41,982 bases of DNA, from the NCBI RefSeq assembly GCF_000422425.1, contig NZ_AULT01000053.1:1-41982 (forward strand), written 5' to 3'. The stretch comes from Oceanospirillum beijerinckii DSM 7166. GTDB taxonomy: Bacteria; Pseudomonadota; Gammaproteobacteria; Pseudomonadales; Halomonadaceae. Of this stretch, positions 13,751 to 21,620 are shown one piece after another (positions within the stretch are counted from its first letter, which is position 1; every line of letters begins with the position of its first letter). Below the pieces are notes generated by a model, which was not told the origin of the DNA, ran no database searches, and saw only the letters and a list, made by a program, of their open reading frames with translations. Position numbers and translations under genes: made by a program.

Positions 13751-14983
13751 TCAGCCTTTAAGCGATGTTTTAATGGCAATTTCACCTTCCAGAGTACGAT
13801 GTACAGGACAGCGATCTGCAATTTCTAACAGTCGCTGGCGCTCTTCATCACTTAGTTTTCCTACTAAAGTAATCTGACGTTCAAAACAATCGATCTTACT
13901 GCCCTTACCATTACCGTCTGAGGGTGAACAGCTGTCGCAGTCTTCAGCATGAATTTTGTCGTGAGTAACGTCTACCTGTACATGCTCTAAGGCTATTTTC
14001 TTACGACGAGCATACATACGAATAGTCATAGAAGTACAAGCCCCCAGGCCTGCGGCTACCAACTGATAAGGTGTCGCTCCGAGATAGTGACCACCATAAT
14101 CGGCTGGCTCATCGGCTACTAGATGATGACCGTCGGCGCTGATATCCTGAGTAAAGCTGTTCGGATCTGCTTCGCTGACTCTAACCACACCTTCCGGTGT
14201 ATTCATCAGTTTGGGCAGTACGCTGACATCAATATAGCGCTGCACCCAGGTTGAGATCATTTCAGCGGCATATTCCGCATCTTCAGCACGGCTGAGCAAG
14301 TGATCTGCAGAGTCCAGAGTAATAAAACTCTTCGGGTGTTTGGCCATCTGGAACAGTTGAGCCGCATTATCCAATGAGACGGTTTCATCCAAAGGCGCAT
14401 GCATAACCAGTAGTGCTTTTCTTAACTCACCTACAGACTCCTGCAAGGACTGTCCGGCAATATCATCAATAAATTGACGCTTAATGGTGAAATTGCGTCC
14501 TCCCAGCTGTACCTCAGCTTCTCCTTTATGACAGATCTCACTGACCTGTTGAGAGAAGTTATGTAAGACATGAGCAGGATCCGCAGGGGAGCCCAAGGTG
14601 ACAACGGCTTTGGCTTCTTCAACCTGTCCTGCTACTGCCAGAATAGCTGCTCCACCTAATGAGTGGCCGATCAGCAATTGAGGCGCTTGATGATGCTGTC
14701 TCAGATAATCCACCGCCAATAACAGATCCTGTACATTGGAACTAAAGCCCGTATTGGCAAACTCTCCATCGGAATGACCCAAGCCAGTAAAATCAAAACG
14801 CAGCACTGCAATACCGAGGGAGGCTAGTCGTTGGGCTATGCGTCGGGCGGCAGGAATATCTTTGGAACAGGTAAAACAATGGGCGAATAATGCATAAGCT
14901 GCGGGCTTACCGACAGGCTGATCCAGTCTGGCGGCCAGTTTTGATCCATCATGTCCGATAAACTCAATACGTTCTGATTTCAT
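13751..14983 (-). CDS. Bifunctional alpha/beta hydrolase - OsmC-family protein
   Basis: The 410-residue fusion has an N-terminal alpha/beta hydrolase (residues 1-255) with the nucleophile elbow GHSLGG (Ser108), the preceding ALFAHCFTCSKD oxyanion-side segment and a candidate catalytic His228 (DSADHLL). The C-terminal OsmC domain (about 262-410) has both redox cysteines in place: Cys316 in LGACTSMT and Cys392 in RCPVHRTLEG. OsmC proteins reduce organic hydroperoxides, so the fusion may couple ester or acyl cleavage to peroxide removal. An insert CDSCSPSDGNGKGSK carries extra cysteines. The ATG at 14983 has CAGGAAGGATATT upstream on its strand. This fusion type is known in proteobacteria; its substrate is not settled. 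Confidence 0.93.
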   Translation of the reverse strand: MKSERIEFIGHDGSKLAARLDQPVGKPAAYALFAHCFTCSKDIPAARRIAQRLASLGIAVLRFDFTGLGHSDGEFANTGFSSNVQDLLLAVDYLRQHHQAPQLLIGHSLGGAAILAVAGQVEEAKAVVTLGSPADPAHVLHNFSQQVSEICHKGEAEVQLGGRNFTIKRQFIDDIAGQSLQESVGELRKALLVMHAPLDETVSLDNAAQLFQMAKHPKSFITLDSADHLLSRAEDAEYAAEMISTWVQRYIDVSVLPKLMNTPEGVVRVSEADPNSFTQDISADGHHLVADEPADYGGHYLGATPYQLVAAGLGACTSMTIRMYARRKKIALEHVQVDVTHDKIHAEDCDSCSPSDGNGKGSKIDCFERQITLVGKLSDEERQRLLEIADRCPVHRTLEGEIAIKTSLKG

Positions 14984-15212
14984 AATATCCTTCCTGTGAC
15001 GATTGCACTGCAAAGATCACGCTTGGCAAGCGCGCGTATAAATATTCGGCATATTTGAAGATAGCTTAGGGGCTTAGAGCCGTTGTGAAAGGCCCAAGCA
15101 ATTTTAAAGGCTTTAATGAAGTACGGTGAAAAGAGGAGCTTAGATGAAAATTGATGCTTTGGAGTTCAAAACTCGAAACAGATGTGGGTTTAGCTCACAA
15201 ATTAATATGCAG

Positions 15213-15746
15213 TTACTCCCTAACCGGGCGCTTCTGTAGTTTACGCTGTAGTGTACGGCGGTGCATACCCAGTTGGCGGGCAGTGGCGGAGATATTGCCG
15301 TCGTTTTCGTTCAGAATCTTTTGAATATGTTCCCAGGTGAGGCGGTTTACGCTCATGGGTTTTTCGGCGATGGGTTGCTCTGGATTGGCTTCTTCCTGGG
15401 ATAGCGCGGCCAGCACTTCATCGGTATCAGCGGGTTTACATAGGTAATTTACCGCGCCCAGTTTGATCGCTTCTACAGCGGTGGCGATACTGGAGTAGCC
15501 GGTCAGGATGACCACTTTACAGTCCGGCACGATCTCCAGCAGTTTCGGTAGCAGCAGTAGGCCGGTTTCTCCCTCCATCTTCAGATCCAAAGTTGCCAGT
15601 TCCGGTTGGAACTCTTCCAGTAGTGGCAGGGCTTCTTCGGCAGATTCAGCGACCAGTGTCTCGTAACCCCGACGTGTCAGTGAGCGTGACAGTATGCGGC
15701 TGAAAACGGGATCATCATCAACAATCAAAAAACGTGTCTGAGACAT
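15213..15746 (-). CDS. regA: Redox response regulator of the RegA/PrrA/RoxR type
   Basis: The 177-residue protein has a receiver domain (residues 5-115) with acidic pocket VDDD, phospho-acceptor Asp54 (ATLDLKMEG) and Lys104 (CKPAD). It ends in a Fis-type helix-turn-helix, NISATARQLGMHRRTLQRKL, which is close to the highly conserved RegA DNA-recognition helix. RegA partners the RegB kinase to control respiration, carbon and nitrogen genes by redox state. RegB is encoded at 18710-19987, on the same strand but separated by purE-purK. The ATG at 15746 is used, with ACAGGTCC upstream. A RegA-box-like element lies 105 bp upstream, which suggests autoregulation. Confidence 0.93.
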   Translation of the reverse strand: MSQTRFLIVDDDPVFSRILSRSLTRRGYETLVAESAEEALPLLEEFQPELATLDLKMEGETGLLLLPKLLEIVPDCKVVILTGYSSIATAVEAIKLGAVNYLCKPADTDEVLAALSQEEANPEQPIAEKPMSVNRLTWEHIQKILNENDGNISATARQLGMHRRTLQRKLQKRPVRE

Positions 15747-15809
15747 AGTGGACCTGTATACCGATTGATCTAAAACAGAGGACAAAGCTTATAGGATAGC
15801 CTGGCGCTT

Positions 15810-15837
15810 ATTATGCCTTGTTCCTTGTTAAAACGGG
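15810..15837 (-). promoter_or_regulatory. regA promoter
   Basis: Read on the minus strand: CCCGTT (15837-15832), a 16-bp spacer, then CATAAT (15815-15810). The -35 is poor, as expected for an activator-dependent promoter. The same hexamers with the same spacer occur before regB. Confidence 0.5.
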
Positions 15838-15848
15838 AGCCCAATGGT

Positions 15849-15866
15849 CTGTAGCAAAATGTCGCA
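15849..15866 (-). promoter_or_regulatory. RegA-box-like site upstream of regA
   Basis: On the minus strand the core is GCGACATTTTGCTAC (15865-15851). It agrees with the recalled RegA/RegR box GNGRCRTTNNGNCGC at 9 of 11 defined positions. The 18-bp string CTGTAGCAAAATGTCGCA is identical to one upstream of regB at 20133-20150. It sits 13 bp upstream of the -35 hexamer. Confidence 0.6.
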
Positions 15867-16064
15867 GTGTTTTGTAGGCCTGCTTTTGTAAGCTTAGGGG
15901 AATGAGTTTTGAGATGAGCTGTCTGGTTTGCAGGTATCGCTGTTGGATTAGGCGGTGTATTGATCAAGCAGACGGATTACGCGCTGGTTAAGTTGATCTG
16001 CCCCTTTGGTCAGTGCGTAAAACCAAGAGTGATAAATACTGATGTTTGCTTGAGGAAATGACTG

Positions 16065-16652
16065 ATGCGCTCTTTTGGTTCTTGGCTTCGTTATGGAGTT
16101 ATTTTGTCTTTTGCTGTGTTGCTTAGTGCCTGTTCGGGTATGAAGCCTGAACAGTTTGCTGATGGGGAGCCTAAGCTGGTCTTGGAAGAGTACTTCGACG
16201 GTAAGGTTTATGCTTGGGGGATTTTCGAAGATCGCTTTGGTCAGGTTAAGCGTCAGTTCCAGGTGGATATTGATAGTCGTTGGGATGGCAAGCAGCTGGT
16301 ACTGGATGAGGCATTCCTGTTTGATGATGGTGAGCGTTCCCGCAGGGTTTGGACAATCACCAAGCATTCCAATGAACGCTATAGCGGTACCGCAGCTGAT
16401 GTGGTGGGTGAAGCCGAAGGGATCGCGTCGGGTAATGCTCTGAATTGGCGTTATCAGATGATGTTAAAAGTGGGTGATGGTGAGTGGCAGGTGAGCTTTG
16501 ATGATTGGATGTTCCTGCAGCCCGGCGGTGTAATGGTGAATCGTGCCGTGGTGAGTAAGTGGGGGGTTGAACTGGGACAGGTGACACTGTTTTTTACTCG
16601 TGGTGAAGCCATGAGAGATGCGCCCTTTGATCTGCAATCTGTGACTCAATGA
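16065..16652 (+). CDS. DUF3833-family lipoprotein
   Basis: The 195-residue protein starts with a lipoprotein signal ending in the lipobox LLSACSG (Cys23), so it should be lipid-anchored in the envelope. The remainder matches the DUF3833 pattern: LEEYFDGKVYAWGIFEDRFG, FDDGERSRRVWTI, DWMFLQPGGVMVNRAVVSKWG. Its function is not known. The ATG at 16065 follows TGAGGAAATGACTG. It diverges from regA, and the RegA-box-like element lies about 200 bp upstream of its start, so shared control is possible but unproven. Confidence 0.88.
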   Translation: MRSFGSWLRYGVILSFAVLLSACSGMKPEQFADGEPKLVLEEYFDGKVYAWGIFEDRFGQVKRQFQVDIDSRWDGKQLVLDEAFLFDDGERSRRVWTITKHSNERYSGTAADVVGEAEGIASGNALNWRYQMMLKVGDGEWQVSFDDWMFLQPGGVMVNRAVVSKWGVELGQVTLFFTRGEAMRDAPFDLQSVTQ

Positions 16653-16722
16653 TATAACGGGATAGATAGTCATATTATTGTAGAGGTGTTGTTTACAAGG
16701 TGTTTTGTCTGTAGACAAAAAC

Positions 16723-16756
16723 AAAAAAGCCGATAGCGTTTGCCATCGGCTTTTTT
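16723..16756. terminator. Bidirectional terminator between DUF3833 gene and purK
   Basis: AAAAAAGCCGAT and ATCGGCTTTTTT form a 12-bp stem around a 10-nt loop. It has T-runs on both strands and serves both converging genes. Confidence 0.92.
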
Positions 16757-16780
16757 GGTACAGCTCAACGATAGTCTGAA

Positions 16781-17887
16781 TTAGATATCGTCGCCGTAGA
16801 CCTGCTTGGCCAGTGCGTTCAGCTGAGCTTTCAGAGACTCGCTGTCGTCGGCTTGCAGATTGATGTGGCCCATCTTGCGGTTAGGCTTAACGGACTTGTT
16901 GTACAGGTGCAGGTAGGCGTCTTCGCCCAGCGCATCTTTAGCCGTTACATCAACACCCAGTAGGTTCACCATACCGCCTGCTTTCGCTGGCTTGGTGTTG
17001 CCCAGTGGCATACCGGTAATGGCACGCAGGTGGTTTTCAAACTGACTGGCGATACCAGCGTTCATGGTCCAGTGACCACTGTTGTGTACACGTGGAGCCA
17101 GTTCGTTAACAACCAGACCGTTTTCCGTAACAAAGCACTCCATCGCCAGTACGCCCACGTAGTTAGAGGCGTTCAGCAGGGTGGCGATCATGCGCTGCGC
17201 TTCCGCTTCCAGCTCTTCTGACAGATCAGGTGCTGGTGCTTCAGAGATCAGCAGGGTGCCACGACGGTGGTAGTTTTCAGTCACCGGATAAACAGCGACT
17301 TCACCCTTGCTGTTACGGGCTGCAATCACAGACACTTCCGTGCTGAAGTTAACCATCTCTTCCATCACGCAGTCCTGAACGCAAACGCTGTCGTCCAGGT
17401 CCTGAATATCCTGTTCGGTCTTCAGACGCCACTGGTTGTAGCCGTCGTAGCCGCCGGAGCAGGTTTTCAGAATTGCGCTGCTGCTAAAGCTGTTCAGTGC
17501 GGCGATGATGTCATCACGGTTAGCAGTAACACGGTAGTTCGCCGTAGGAATACCTTGCTCATTGATCCAGTTTTTCTCTTTACCGCGGTGGCGGCAGATA
17601 TCAATGACATCTGGGTCTGGGTAGATTGGGCAGTGCTGTTGCAGTTTGCGCAGCAGTGTGGTGTCTACCTCTTCTTTCTCAACAGTAATCACGTCAGGCT
17701 TACCCAGCGCGTCATACAGGCTGTCGATATCGGCATGGTCTTCCAGGAAGATAATATCTCCCAGACCTTCGATACAGGAGGTGTTTTCCTGCTTGCTGCC
17801 GAAAAAGGCAAAGCTGTAACCCAGAGGCCAACCTGCCAGGGCCATCATTCGGGCCAGCTGCCCGGTACCTTTAATGGCAATTCTCAT
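16781..17887 (-). CDS. purK: 5-(carboxyamino)imidazole ribonucleotide synthase PurK
   Basis: This ATP-grasp enzyme carboxylates aminoimidazole ribonucleotide with bicarbonate and ATP in purine synthesis. It is 368 residues long, normal for PurK. The N-terminus [21 protein letters not shown] replaces the usual glycine-rich loop GGGQLGRM with [12 protein letters not shown]-grasp signatures include [28 protein letters not shown], and [14 protein letters not shown]. It overlaps purE by 4 bp (ATGA), so the two are translationally coupled. Confidence 0.97.
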
Positions 17888-18369
17888 TTTACGATCTCGA
17901 ATGGTACGTTGTCGGTTTGTTTCTGACGGTATTCCTGCAGGCGCTGACGCAGTTCGTCGTCTTCAATCGCCAGCATCTGAGCGGCCATCAGACCTGCATT
18001 CAAAGCACCCGCTTCGCCAATAGCCATAGTCGCAACAGGGATGCCTCGTGGCATCTGTACAACAGACAGAAGACTGTCCATGCCTTTCAGATGACGGCTG
18101 GCAACCGGCACACCAATTACAGGTACCAGTGTTTCAGACGCTAGCATACCTGGTAGGTGAGCTGCGCCACCTGCGCCTGCGATAATGATCTTAGTTCCAT
18201 TTTCATGGGCTTTAGTCGCGAATTCCACCAGACGCTGCGGTGTACGGTGAGCAGACACAATGCCTGTCTCGTACTCAATACCCAGCTCTTCCAGTGGCTT
18301 AGTTGCGCTTTTCATTGTTTCCCAGTCAGACTGGGAGCCCATAACAATGGTAACCCTGGCAAATTTCAT
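17884..18369 (-). CDS. purE: N5-CAIR mutase PurE
   Basis: This is the class I PurE mutase that converts N5-CAIR made by PurK to CAIR. The 161 residues include the substrate loop GSQSDWETM, the catalytic SAHRTP, and [11 protein letters not shown], all intact. It is followed directly by purK with a 4-bp overlap. The ATG at 18369 follows GTGGAGAATAACGATC on the minus strand. The pair sits between regA and regB in the same direction. Confidence 0.97.
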
Positions 18370-18709
18370 GATCGTTATTCTCCACGCCCGAACAAAGCGG
18401 GTTTTATTAAGATATTAAATTTGATAGTCCACCGTCGCAGCTTTCGTTTTACATTCTACTCCTAGCACAAGAAGGTTCTGGTACATACAGGTTCTAGTAC
18501 AAACAGGAAAAAGCCTATCCGACCCAAGCATACTCATGCCTAGTCTCAAAGCTTGTTGTCTGTTGTAAAACAGGGATACTGCAGCGGCATTCGAAGCCAG
18601 TTAATGGCGTAGTATACCACTTGTTTGTGCTGCATTCAGCGCCATTTATGACACTAATGCTATCCCTATTGTTATGAAGGACGTTTTTATATCTTTTTGA
18701 TATAGAGCT
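18370..18709. other. Intergenic region between purE and regB 3' end
   Basis: This 340-bp region contains a 16-bp imperfect tandem repeat, AGGTTCTGGTACATAC (18473-18488) and AGGTTCTAGTACAAAC (18489-18504). A small AT-rich hairpin TATATC-TTTTT-GATATA (18688-18704) follows the regB stop. No clear PurR operator was recognised. Confidence 0.5.
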
Positions 18710-19987
18710 TTAACTCTGATCAGACTCAGAAAGTGTGGACAGCAATGGCAGAGTCACCTGAGTGATGGTACCACCCTCTTTCGGACTATAGAGTTTCACC
18801 GTGCCATTAAAGCGGTTGATGGTGGAATGGGTTAAAAACAGCCCTATGCCCATACCTTCTTCCTTGGTGGAGATAAAGGTTTCACCTAAACGCTCGGCCA
18901 CTTCCGGCGCAATACCAGGGCCATAATCCTTGATCTTAATGGTGACTTGAGACTGATCCCAGCTGACCGAGATATCCACCTGCTCAGGGCTGACATCGGC
19001 AGCGTTATTGAGCAGATTCAGCAGTGCCTGTTCCAGTGTTTGATCGGATTTTACCTTGGGTATCGGTGTGCTATCAGGGCTAGTAAGCTGATACTTTACC
19101 TCGGGGCGTAATACCTTCCAGTGTTCAATTACAGGGACTAGAAGATCACAGATATCCACCTGATTTTGGGACACTTGCTGATCCTTATCCGCCTGTCGGG
19201 TTAACTGCTGTAGCTTAGTCTTACAGCTATCAACTTGCTCACGCATAATGGCCAGATCTTCCTGTAGCAGAGGATCGTCGGCGTAATCCTTCTCCAGATC
19301 CTTGATCATAATCGCCAGTGTCGACAGTGGTGTACCCAGCTCATGAGCGGTACCGGCAGCCTGAGTCGCTACCGCCAGAATCTGCTCATCACGCATATGT
19401 TTTTCCCGCACTTCACCTAGAGTTTTCTCCCGATCCCGCAGGGTATGGGCCATCTTAAAAACAAATGTGGTGATAAGGCCGGTGGAGAGCAAAAAGTTAA
19501 GCCACATGCCTAACAGGTGCAGATTGATACCGACATGATTGGAATGACTGAGTTCGGGAACTGCAATATAGAACTGCATCAGAAAGGTATATGCGCTCAG
19601 CACCGCCGCCGCAATAATCCAAGTAAATATCCACGGTAAGGTGGCAGCGCTAATGGTCAGAGGGACCAGGAAATAGGAGACAAAGGGGTTATTAGCACCG
19701 CCGGAGTAATAGAAAAACAGGCTTAAACCGACCACATCGGCCAATAGATGAAACAGGTATTCTGAGTCGGTTACCGGGTAAGGTTTATGCAAGCGCCACC
19801 AAGTCAGCATATTCAGACCGGCCATGACAATAATAATGGCGATCAGAGGCACGGCCAGCAGATGAATTTTTAGTATTTCGGTGCCTGCGATCACTGCTAA
19901 AGAGAAACCGGTCCAGGCGATACCGCGCATCAGGGTCAGGCGAACCAGATTACGGCCCGGAGTGGAAAGAGGTAAAGGTTGATTCAT
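18710..19987 (-). CDS. regB: Redox sensor histidine kinase of the RegB/PrrB/RoxS type
   Basis: This 425-residue inner-membrane kinase has about six N-terminal spans. The RegB quinone-sensing motif GGANNPF (residues 96-102) is present. The H-box reads AGTAHELGTPLSTL with phospho-acceptor His215. Cys255 (QVDSCKTKL) corresponds to the redox-active cysteine of the RegB dimerisation domain. The catalytic domain has LLNLLNNAADVS, KDYGPGIAP and GMGIGLFLTHS. The ATG at 19987 gives MNQPLPLSTPGRNLVRL. Its partner regA is 3 kb away, whereas in most genomes the two are adjacent. The upstream region carries a copy of the regA promoter elements. Confidence 0.93.
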   Translation of the reverse strand: MNQPLPLSTPGRNLVRLTLMRGIAWTGFSLAVIAGTEILKIHLLAVPLIAIIIVMAGLNMLTWWRLHKPYPVTDSEYLFHLLADVVGLSLFFYYSGGANNPFVSYFLVPLTISAATLPWIFTWIIAAAVLSAYTFLMQFYIAVPELSHSNHVGINLHLLGMWLNFLLSTGLITTFVFKMAHTLRDREKTLGEVREKHMRDEQILAVATQAAGTAHELGTPLSTLAIMIKDLEKDYADDPLLQEDLAIMREQVDSCKTKLQQLTRQADKDQQVSQNQVDICDLLVPVIEHWKVLRPEVKYQLTSPDSTPIPKVKSDQTLEQALLNLLNNAADVSPEQVDISVSWDQSQVTIKIKDYGPGIAPEVAERLGETFISTKEEGMGIGLFLTHSTINRFNGTVKLYSPKEGGTITQVTLPLLSTLSESDQS

Positions 19988-20094
19988 AGGTGATCTAATC
20001 TGCAGAGCTTCTTTTAAGGCACTTTCGGTTCGGGTGTTGTTGTTTAAGTGCTGCTATTTGTGTGCCTTTATTTAGGCGTTTCAACTAGCCGAGC

Positions 20095-20122
20095 ATTATG
20101 CCTGCTCAGATCCGATAACGGG
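20095..20122 (-). promoter_or_regulatory. regB promoter
   Basis: Read on the minus strand: CCCGTT (20122-20117), a 16-bp spacer, then CATAAT (20100-20095), identical in hexamers and spacing to the regA promoter. The leader would be about 100 nt. Confidence 0.5.
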
Positions 20123-20132
20123 AGGGATAGCG

Positions 20133-20150
20133 CTGTAGCAAAATGTCGCA
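20133..20150 (-). promoter_or_regulatory. RegA-box-like site upstream of regB
   Basis: An exact copy of the 18-bp CTGTAGCAAAATGTCGCA found upstream of regA, in the same orientation to the gene. It lies 12 bp from the -35 hexamer. Confidence 0.6.
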
Positions 20151-20172
20151 CGAGGGTAGAGCCTCTTGGTTG

Positions 20173-20748
20173 TTACATAATATCCAATGATACCTGTAAG
20201 GCTTTGAGAAGCCTTCTGCTCCTTTTTGCAGCCCCCAAATCTCCCTGAATATGGGCCTGAACTATGGCCCCTTCTTTTAGCTGGCAAATCGTCTCGGTCA
20301 GTTCTTGGTGTCCTGAGGTCATCGGTAGCCGATCTACCTGTTCTCTCACTAACTCTTCAATCCGTTTCTTATGCTGTGCACATCGTTGGTGGGCTTGGTG
20401 ACTGATGTCACCAAATTCGGCGCAGGTGTTGATAAAGAAGCAGCCCTGGAAGTCCATTAGCTCTTCTGCCCGGTTATTAAACCAGTCATCCAATGCGTCA
20501 AAAATGGCCTCTAGTGCGGGTAGGCCGGGCTCGGCTTTTTGGATATAGCCACTAAACCATTCCAGAAAGACCTGGTCGCGATACTCCAGTACGGCCAATA
20601 GAAGTTGCTCTTTGCTGGTGAAGTGATGGTAAAGGGTTTTTTTTGCGATGCCGGATTCTTTCAGGATCTGATTGATGCCAACGGCGTGGATGCCGTTCTG
20701 GTAAAAAAGGCGGAATGCGGTGTTGATCGGTTGTTGGCGCTTATCCAC
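20173..20748 (-). CDS. TetR/AcrR-family repressor
   Basis: The protein has 191 residues. Residues 1-50 form the TetR helix-turn-helix (INTAFRLFYQNGIHAVGINQILKES, KKTLYHHFTSKEQLL). The ligand domain includes MDFQGCFFINTCAEFGD, with two cysteines, and RCAQHKK. Similar sequences occur in TetR proteins that sense electrophiles or small metabolites (NemR/AcuR-like); this is an analogy. A GTG start at 20748 is preferred because GAAGAGAAAAGCC precedes it; a TTG at 20772 lacks a ribosome site. It diverges from the HPP gene, over two palindromes that are its probable operators. Confidence 0.9.
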   Translation of the reverse strand: MDKRQQPINTAFRLFYQNGIHAVGINQILKESGIAKKTLYHHFTSKEQLLLAVLEYRDQVFLEWFSGYIQKAEPGLPALEAIFDALDDWFNNRAEELMDFQGCFFINTCAEFGDISHQAHQRCAQHKKRIEELVREQVDRLPMTSGHQELTETICQLKEGAIVQAHIQGDLGAAKRSRRLLKALQVSLDIM

Positions 20749-20796
20749 GGCTTTTCTCTTCTTTTGCTTCAAGGCAGTTATGCAGATCGTTTCATA

Positions 20797-20825
20797 TTGA
20801 CAAAGGTAGACAGAGTTGTCTATCT
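20797..20825 (+). promoter_or_regulatory. Sigma70 promoter of the HPP gene
   Basis: A perfect -35 TTGACA (20797-20802) is followed after 17 bp by CTATCT (20820-20825), or after 18 bp by TATCTT. The first TetR operator fills the spacer and -10. Confidence 0.7.
20806..20823. promoter_or_regulatory. TetR operator 1
   Basis: GTAGAC-AGAGTT-GTCTAT, an inverted repeat with one terminal mismatch, lies between -35 and -10. Binding here would block RNA polymerase. Confidence 0.7.
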
Positions 20826-20832
20826 TTTCGGG

Positions 20833-20850
20833 GTAGACAGATTGGTCTAC
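20833..20850. promoter_or_regulatory. TetR operator 2
   Basis: GTAGAC-AGATTG-GTCTAC is a perfect 6-6-6 inverted repeat starting at about the transcription start. Its centre is 27 bp from that of operator 1. Confidence 0.7.
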
Positions 20851-20896
20851 TTGGCTGGAGGTTGATCCAGGACTGAATTCAGAAAGAGGTCAGGTA

Positions 20897-21457
20897 ATGA
20901 TTAAAGAGGGTGATAAGCCGATTGTGCATAGCTCGGGGAGTAATGGTTTAGCAGGTTTTGCGGTATTACGTCGGTTAGGGCTTACTCGCTGGCCAGCGTT
21001 GACGGCAGGGTTGGGTGCGATGCTAACCATTTCTATATTAGCCACTTTGGAAGAGAGCGGCATCCAGCTACTGGCTCAAGATCAGATCTGGCTGATGGCT
21101 CCGTTTGGTGCAACCATGGTGCTGCTGTTTGGTCTGCCAGATAGTCCGTTGGCGCAGCCAAGGAATATTGTTGTCGGTCATATTATGACGACGGCGATTG
21201 GTTTGGCTGTGATGGGGTTAGTGGGTGTTCATGCCTGGTCATTGGGTTTGGCAGTAGGATTGGCGATCACTTTTATGATGATGACGAAAACGGTGCACCC
21301 TCCAGCAGGTGCTAACCCTTTGCTGGTGATGTTAGCGGGGGAGTCCGTGGGTTTTCTGGTGAGTCCTGTGGCTAGTGGGGTGGTGATTATTGTTCTATTG
21401 GGTTGGTTTTATCATAAGGTGTTATGCCAACGCGCTTATCCTAAACAGTGGTTTTAG
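20897..21457 (+). CDS. HPP-family membrane protein
   Basis: The 186-residue integral membrane protein has four hydrophobic spans. The family signature is clear: APFGATMVLLFGLPDSPLAQPRNIVVGH and TKTVHPPAGANPLLVM, the latter with the name-giving HPP. In cyanobacteria members of this family transport nitrite; here the substrate is unknown. It is driven by a promoter that the divergent TetR protein should repress. It has a GAAAGAGGTCAGGTA ribosome region. The NosR-like gene follows after 163 bp. Confidence 0.9.
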   Translation: MIKEGDKPIVHSSGSNGLAGFAVLRRLGLTRWPALTAGLGAMLTISILATLEESGIQLLAQDQIWLMAPFGATMVLLFGLPDSPLAQPRNIVVGHIMTTAIGLAVMGLVGVHAWSLGLAVGLAITFMMMTKTVHPPAGANPLLVMLAGESVGFLVSPVASGVVIIVLLGWFYHKVLCQRAYPKQWF

Positions 21458-21620
21458 CCTTATTTAAAGAGAGGTTTTAATTGCTTGATTAAATATACAT
21501 AGAACTAATAGGAATAAATTTTACGACTAAAGTACAGCAATAATTGCGCCCTTACGGTCATGTAGTGACTGCTTCCCCCTAAGTGATACTCAGGTATTGC
21601 TTATGAGGGAGATTGCATCA

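Follow-up and report, generated by a model that had tools for sequence, protein, structure and literature searches.

Twin copies of a predicted RegA-controlled promoter at the separated regA and regB genes of Oceanospirillum beijerinckii

In Oceanospirillum beijerinckii DSM 7166, the genes for a RegA-like response regulator and a RegB-like redox sensor kinase have become separated, and the same short promoter module precedes each of them. Both genes are located in a stretch of 41,982 bp (hereafter the window), which is one whole contig (C45; NZ_AULT01000053.1) of the 99-contig, 5.33-Mb draft genome. We propose that the two modules are copies of one autoregulatory regB-regA promoter that is predicted to be controlled by RegA, and assign this reading a probability of about 0.77. 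The two genes lie 2,963 bp apart, with purE, purK and a gene for a DUF3833 lipoprotein in between. A promoter copy at each gene would allow the shared redox response, the feedback loop and the co-expression to survive the split, and we infer that autoregulation by RegA maintains the co-expression of the separated pair.

Both copies have the same layout. Toward the gene, the box TGCGACATTTTGCTACAG is followed by 8-9 bases, CTCCCGTT, 14 bases and GGCATAAT. The box is an 18-mer (forward-strand reading CTGTAGCAAAATGTCGCA; Table 1) that occurs in the same orientation 5' of regA and regB, and it constitutes the sole exact family among the four direct-repeat families of the region 14900-21600. The core elements comprise CCCGTT and the -10-like CATAAT, spaced by 16 bp in both copies, and the shared block exceeds these hexamers, as CTCCCGTT and GGCATAAT are each identical at 8/8 positions. 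In total, the copies agree at 17/17 box and 16/16 core positions, while only 7/23 spacer positions and 5/23 positions after the -10 element are identical. Identical elements embedded in diverged spacers suggest an old copy that has been held by selection. A previous sequence-only reading of this DNA had described the repeated 18-mer, the two hexamers with their spacer and the genes that split the pair, all of which agree with our coordinates. Its distance of 12-13 bp between 18-mer and CCCGTT was too long; we count 11 bases at regA and 10 at regB. CATAAT matches the sigma-70 -10 consensus at 5/6 positions, but CCCGTT matches TTGACA at 0/6, and a sigma-70 promoter scan lists neither the regA nor the regB promoter. 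CCCGTT is no sigma-70 -35 element. A good -10 element combined with the lack of a sigma-70 -35 would fit an activator-dependent promoter.

The recurrence of the module is hard to attribute to base composition. When up to three mismatches to the box 17-mer are allowed, the window contains two matches, compared with a mean of 0.16 in 100 shuffles, of which one reached two. Throughout the genome, the exact 15-base core of the box occurs at two places only, upstream of regA and regB, and the same holds for the exact CTCCCGTT-N14-GGCATAAT module. With up to two mismatches, this module is found 4 times in the own genome versus 2 in controls, and 18 versus 11 times in six Oceanospirillum genomes.

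The arrangement in related genomes suggests how the two copies came about. The closest relatives of the genome are five Oceanospirillum species (O. sediminis, O. multiglobuliferum, O. sanctuarii, O. linum and O. maris). We surveyed 57 relatives, comprising 36 genomes of the family and 21 at order level, and found regB and regA adjacent on one strand in 36/36 and 13/21 genomes, respectively. The remaining eight order-level genomes have no clear pair, so that the genes are neighbours in 49 of the 49 genomes with a clear pair, including all five congeners; the widest separation of the two matches within the family is ∼375 bp. Each of the five congeners carries a single copy of the module, located 5' of regB-regA, which supports the earlier suggestion that the promoter was copied upon breakage of the operon, as does the synteny check proposed alongside it. 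Compared with the modules of the window, those of the congeners match at 15-16/17 positions of the box and 14-16/16 of the core. From box start to CATAAT they all measure 50, a distance shared by the own regB copy, against 51 at the own regA. The DUF3833 gene lies next to the regBA promoter, in divergent orientation, in O. linum, O. sanctuarii and O. maris. In O. sediminis it is found on a separate contig, and O. multiglobuliferum has just a distant relative (40%) located elsewhere. As the DUF3833 gene faces regA in the window, regA occupies the old site and regB is the displaced gene. Taken together, these comparisons support a scenario in which the operon was broken in the window's lineage and its promoter now exists in two copies.

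In the Oceanospirillum ancestor, a single promoter consisting of the RegA box, 8-9 bp, CTCCCGTT, 14 bp and GGCATAAT would have served regB-regA. After the break, regA would have retained this promoter beside the DUF3833 gene, and regB, now upstream of purE-purK, would have a copy of its own. A possible route is a tandem duplication spanning purEK, the DUF3833 gene, the promoter and regB, after which one copy lost purEK and the DUF3833 gene and the other lost regB; this would yield the observed order and strands. Such a reciprocal loss, by which operon fission with duplication of the autoregulatory promoter produced a two-promoter feedback circuit, is a tentative account that we consider close to an even bet. 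It needs an ancestor in which purEK lay beside the DUF3833 gene. The three congeners with the DUF3833 gene in place (O. linum, O. sanctuarii and O. maris) have purEK on the strand of regBA, at a distance of 13-30 kb on its 5' side. Two results speak against this route: purEK is adjacent to the DUF3833 gene in no congener, and a short-word BLAST search, the only one made, found no trace of a lost regB ahead of regA or of a lost regA behind regB, returning just the promoter itself and matches of 10-13 bases. For these two reasons the duplication route stays a proposal.

Alternatively, no copying took place, and selection produced a promoter of the same layout anew once regB had moved. In line with this, the spacers and downstream sequences of the two own copies (7/23 and 5/23) are no closer to each other than to those of congeners (5-11/23 and 3-8/23), and the same short-word search detected no duplicated flank. 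However, the copies agree at 33/33 element positions, they differ by 1 bp in spacing and each conforms to the pattern of the genus, which renders a new gain far less likely than a kept copy; we regard it as quite improbable. It is very unlikely, too, that regB arrived by horizontal transfer together with its promoter while the native regB was lost. The new site beside a TetR-family regulator gene might hint at such an event, but the own RegB is closest to that of O. sediminis (82.3%), just as the own RegA is closest to O. sediminis RegA (89.8%). In the RegB tree, the own protein and that of O. sediminis are joined at 87/95, while the RegA tree provides no resolution. With both proteins nearest to the same species, descent appears to be vertical and transfer unlikely. 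Finally, the window is a single whole contig of a 99-contig draft, and the split could in principle have been introduced at the shared 18-mer by faulty assembly. This is the least probable of the explanations considered here: the shared repeat is as short as 18 bp, the reading frames of both genes are uninterrupted and their leaders differ, the DUF3833 gene and promoter represent the ancestral neighbourhood, and the gene downstream of regB, 340 bp away, is a different one.

Several lines of evidence bear on whether RegA itself reads the box. The box 11-mer CAAAATGTCGC is common to 2 of the 33 R. capsulatus RegA sites from chromatin immunoprecipitation sequencing in PMC5359404 (sites 17 and 27), both of which are described there as RegA-activated. 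With a matrix built from these 33 sites, the two copies rank joint fifth among 83,936 window positions, with four scoring higher. Among 3,000 random 200-bp stretches of the window, these promoters included, 2% attain their score. The recognition helix of the window RegA, MHRRTLQR, is identical to that of PrrA (1umq). Outside the genus, the half-site TGCGRCA occurs within 250 bp 5' of regB in 8 of 24 loci, versus a shuffle mean of 2.1, and eight were reached in 1 of 1000 shuffles; this test covers 24 of the 31 non-genus family genomes, with two shorter stretches among them. Six of the eight loci are three same-genus pairs, and in one the half-site lies 26 bp from the start on the opposite strand; we therefore read this enrichment as no more than suggestive. 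In one family member outside the genus, the region before regB contains the palindrome TGCGACCGAGCGTCGCA, which begins 93 bp upstream of the regB match.

Similar boxes are found at other genes of the genus. Upstream of nqrA, five of the six Oceanospirillum genomes contain a site with 0-1 mismatches to GCGACATTNTGCNNC, which lies ∼40 bp before TATAAT and is oriented opposite to the regBA box. The own site (contig C20, 14754-14768) and that of O. sediminis match the RegR string at 11/11 positions. The own gene was confirmed as subunit A of Na+-NQR; nqrA was recognised by eye in translations from O. linum, O. sanctuarii and O. multiglobuliferum, and in O. sediminis and O. maris it was assigned from its location behind gap. 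RegA-type boxes also precede gap, encoding GAPDH, in two genomes, namely the own one (GCAACATTTTGCTGC) and that of O. sediminis (GCGACATTTTGCTGC); among the seven inexact core matches of the own genome, this gap site alone was taken up. The exact string GCGACATTTTGC has 13 matches in the six genomes, five at regA/regB, three at nqrA, one at gap, one at an MbnP-family gene of O. sediminis and three inside open reading frames, hence 10/13 are located upstream of named genes; the reversed control totals 8. Based on its conservation before regBA, its recurrence before nqrA, the shared 11-mer and the PrrA-like helix, the box looks like a RegA-type site. RegA would then bind a box centred ∼54 bp upstream of the expected transcription start and activate the promoter. 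We predict that Na+-NQR, and in two species also GAPDH, belong to the Oceanospirillum RegA regulon.

Several observations weigh against our reading. The sequence-only reading had relied on a fit to the RegA/RegR consensus at 9 of 11 positions. The count is correct for the RegR string GNGRCRTTNNGNCGC (PMC5506826), but the fit is not significant by itself, since 20 of the 83,936 positions in the window reach or exceed this score, compared with 40, 30, 21, 27 and 24 in five mononucleotide shuffles. As this fit is at chance level, it was dropped as evidence. The RegA string from the same source, SSGNVRDNHYSNCSS, is matched at 10/12 positions, a score reached or exceeded at 1,325 window positions. 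The exact RegR consensus was also rejected as a regulon finder, with 8 matches versus 16 in reversed controls in the own genome and 2 versus 7 in O. sediminis; the eight own matches comprise one promoter (nqrA), six positions inside an open reading frame and one (contig C13) that is unplaced. The genome scan proposed earlier as a check has a similar second side: exact matches of the 15-base core single out regA and regB, but with up to two mismatches there are 9 matches versus 22 in the reversed control, thus near matches are not enriched as a class. Likewise, TGCGACATTNTGCNNC with one mismatch gave 45 matches versus 42 controls in the six genomes, that is, no enrichment; here, recurrent neighbours alone were followed further, with 14 loci inspected among the matches listed. 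The nqrA site of O. maris is degenerate, with 3 mismatches to GCGACATTNTGCNNC, and the gap-upstream box was not found in the other four of the six genomes. The literature points in the same direction: an R. sphaeroides PrrA study did not find a strong motif, according to PMC4263372, and PMC5506826 calls RegA, PrrA and RegR sites degenerate and dissimilar.

Another regulator could read the same box. In this case, the box would be the target of a different protein common to regBA and nqr, and co-expression would be kept without autoregulation. Conservation marks a regulatory site and not the protein that binds it, and a consensus match is weak by itself. Nevertheless, the 11-mer shared with two RegA-bound R. 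capsulatus sites, the PrrA-like recognition helix and the role of nqrA as a redox target favour RegA, as does the autoregulation that PMC5506826 describes for characterised regBA operons. We consider a different regulator unlikely, although it is the most probable of the alternatives.

Both window proteins find their best NCBIfam models in the RegB/RegA family (also PrrB/PrrA, ActS/ActR, RegS/RegR and RoxS/RoxR). RegA hits NF033791 (2.6e-54, 183.8 bits) and RegB hits NF033792 (2.9e-71, 240.5 bits); both fall below the respective equivalog cut-offs of 250 and 350 bits, in which they differ from the members these models define. Hallmarks of RegB are the quinone motif GGxxNPF, the H-box HELGTPL and a redox cysteine. 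The translation of the window regB contains GGANNPF, HELGTPL and SCKTKLQQL, whose cysteine would be the redox-active residue. The Fis-type helix-turn-helix of RegA, the resemblance of the box to RegR/RegA sites and the predicted autoregulation are further likenesses to the known systems.

Adjacency of regB and regA is usual, but not needed for function. In Rhodobacter capsulatus, regB and senC-regA-hvrA form separate units that are divergent neighbours sharing one intergenic region, and RegA regulates its own expression. Like there, regB and regA of the window belong to separate transcription units. Unlike there, these units are co-oriented, separated by 3 kb of unrelated genes (purEK and the DUF3833 gene) and equipped with one promoter copy each. 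Hence, neither autoregulation of regBA nor the placement of regB and regA in separate units is new, and the novelty would lie in a co-oriented split with two kept promoter copies. Among the open-access literature matches listed, no paper dealt with Oceanospirillum RegB/RegA or with a co-oriented two-promoter split. In Acidithiobacillus ferrooxidans, the regBA operon is intact, and a search of its promoters for RegA sites failed, according to PMC5506826.

If our reading is correct, the window provides an example of a feedback circuit that outlived the breakage of its operon through duplication of the promoter, with each copy kept at the pattern of the genus. Selection would have preserved 33 element positions while the spacers drifted to background, and the pair would outline a minimal RegA-dependent promoter. 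This could yield a sharper model of the RegA box for a group whose motif is called degenerate. The levels of kinase and regulator may also have become separately tunable.

Table 1. Features of the regA-regB region in the window
Feature	Coordinates	Strand	Remarks
regA-like response regulator, ActR/PrrA/RegA/RoxR family, 177 aa	15213..15746	-	receiver and Fis-type helix-turn-helix; start set at ATG, 15746
Candidate regA core promoter element CTCCCGTT-N14-GGCATAAT	15810..15839	-	CCCGTT 15837-15832; -10-like CATAAT 15815-15810
RegA-box-like 18-mer 5' of regA	15849..15866	-	minus-strand reading TGCGACATTTTGCTACAG
DUF3833 lipoprotein gene, divergent from regA	16065..16652	+	PF12915; marks the ancestral regBA promoter position
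purK	16781..17887	-	ATP-grasp, PurK_C
purE	17884..18369	-	AIRC
regB-like redox sensor kinase, ActS/PrrB/RegB family, 425 aa, displaced from regA	18710..19987	-
Candidate regB core promoter element CTCCCGTT-N14-GGCATAAT	20095..20124	-	CCCGTT 20122-20117; CATAAT 20100-20095
RegA-box-like 18-mer 5' of regB, identical to the regA copy	20133..20150	-	minus-strand reading TGCGACATTTTGCTACAG
TetR-family regulator gene	20173..20748	-	TetR_N; GTG start assumed

The surroundings of the displaced regB may add a further layer of control. Its promoter has the TetR-family gene as upstream neighbour, which bounds the module and lies outside it. The 340-bp gap downstream of regB (18370-18709) leads to purE, and the scan lists no terminator-like site on the minus strand of this interval; the region 14900-21600 contains a single listed inverted repeat, a terminator-like one at 16722-16757. 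Transcripts of regB might hence run into purEK. If such read-through is possible, purEK may come under redox control via regB.

Two minor observations concern box-like sequences in the congeners. In O. sediminis, two RegA-type boxes lie 28 bp apart 5' of the MbnP-family gene, which is followed by a gene for an MbnH/MauG-like di-haem peroxidase. At the ccoP-ccoG junction in congeners, the perfect palindrome GCGACATTATGTCGC forms an ideal RegA-type site inside a terminator-like hairpin; matches are also present in O. multiglobuliferum and O. sanctuarii, and the names of the two genes were tested at one such locus. This palindrome, part of the hairpin, was not counted among the RegA sites; it may serve as a terminator, as a binding site or in both roles.

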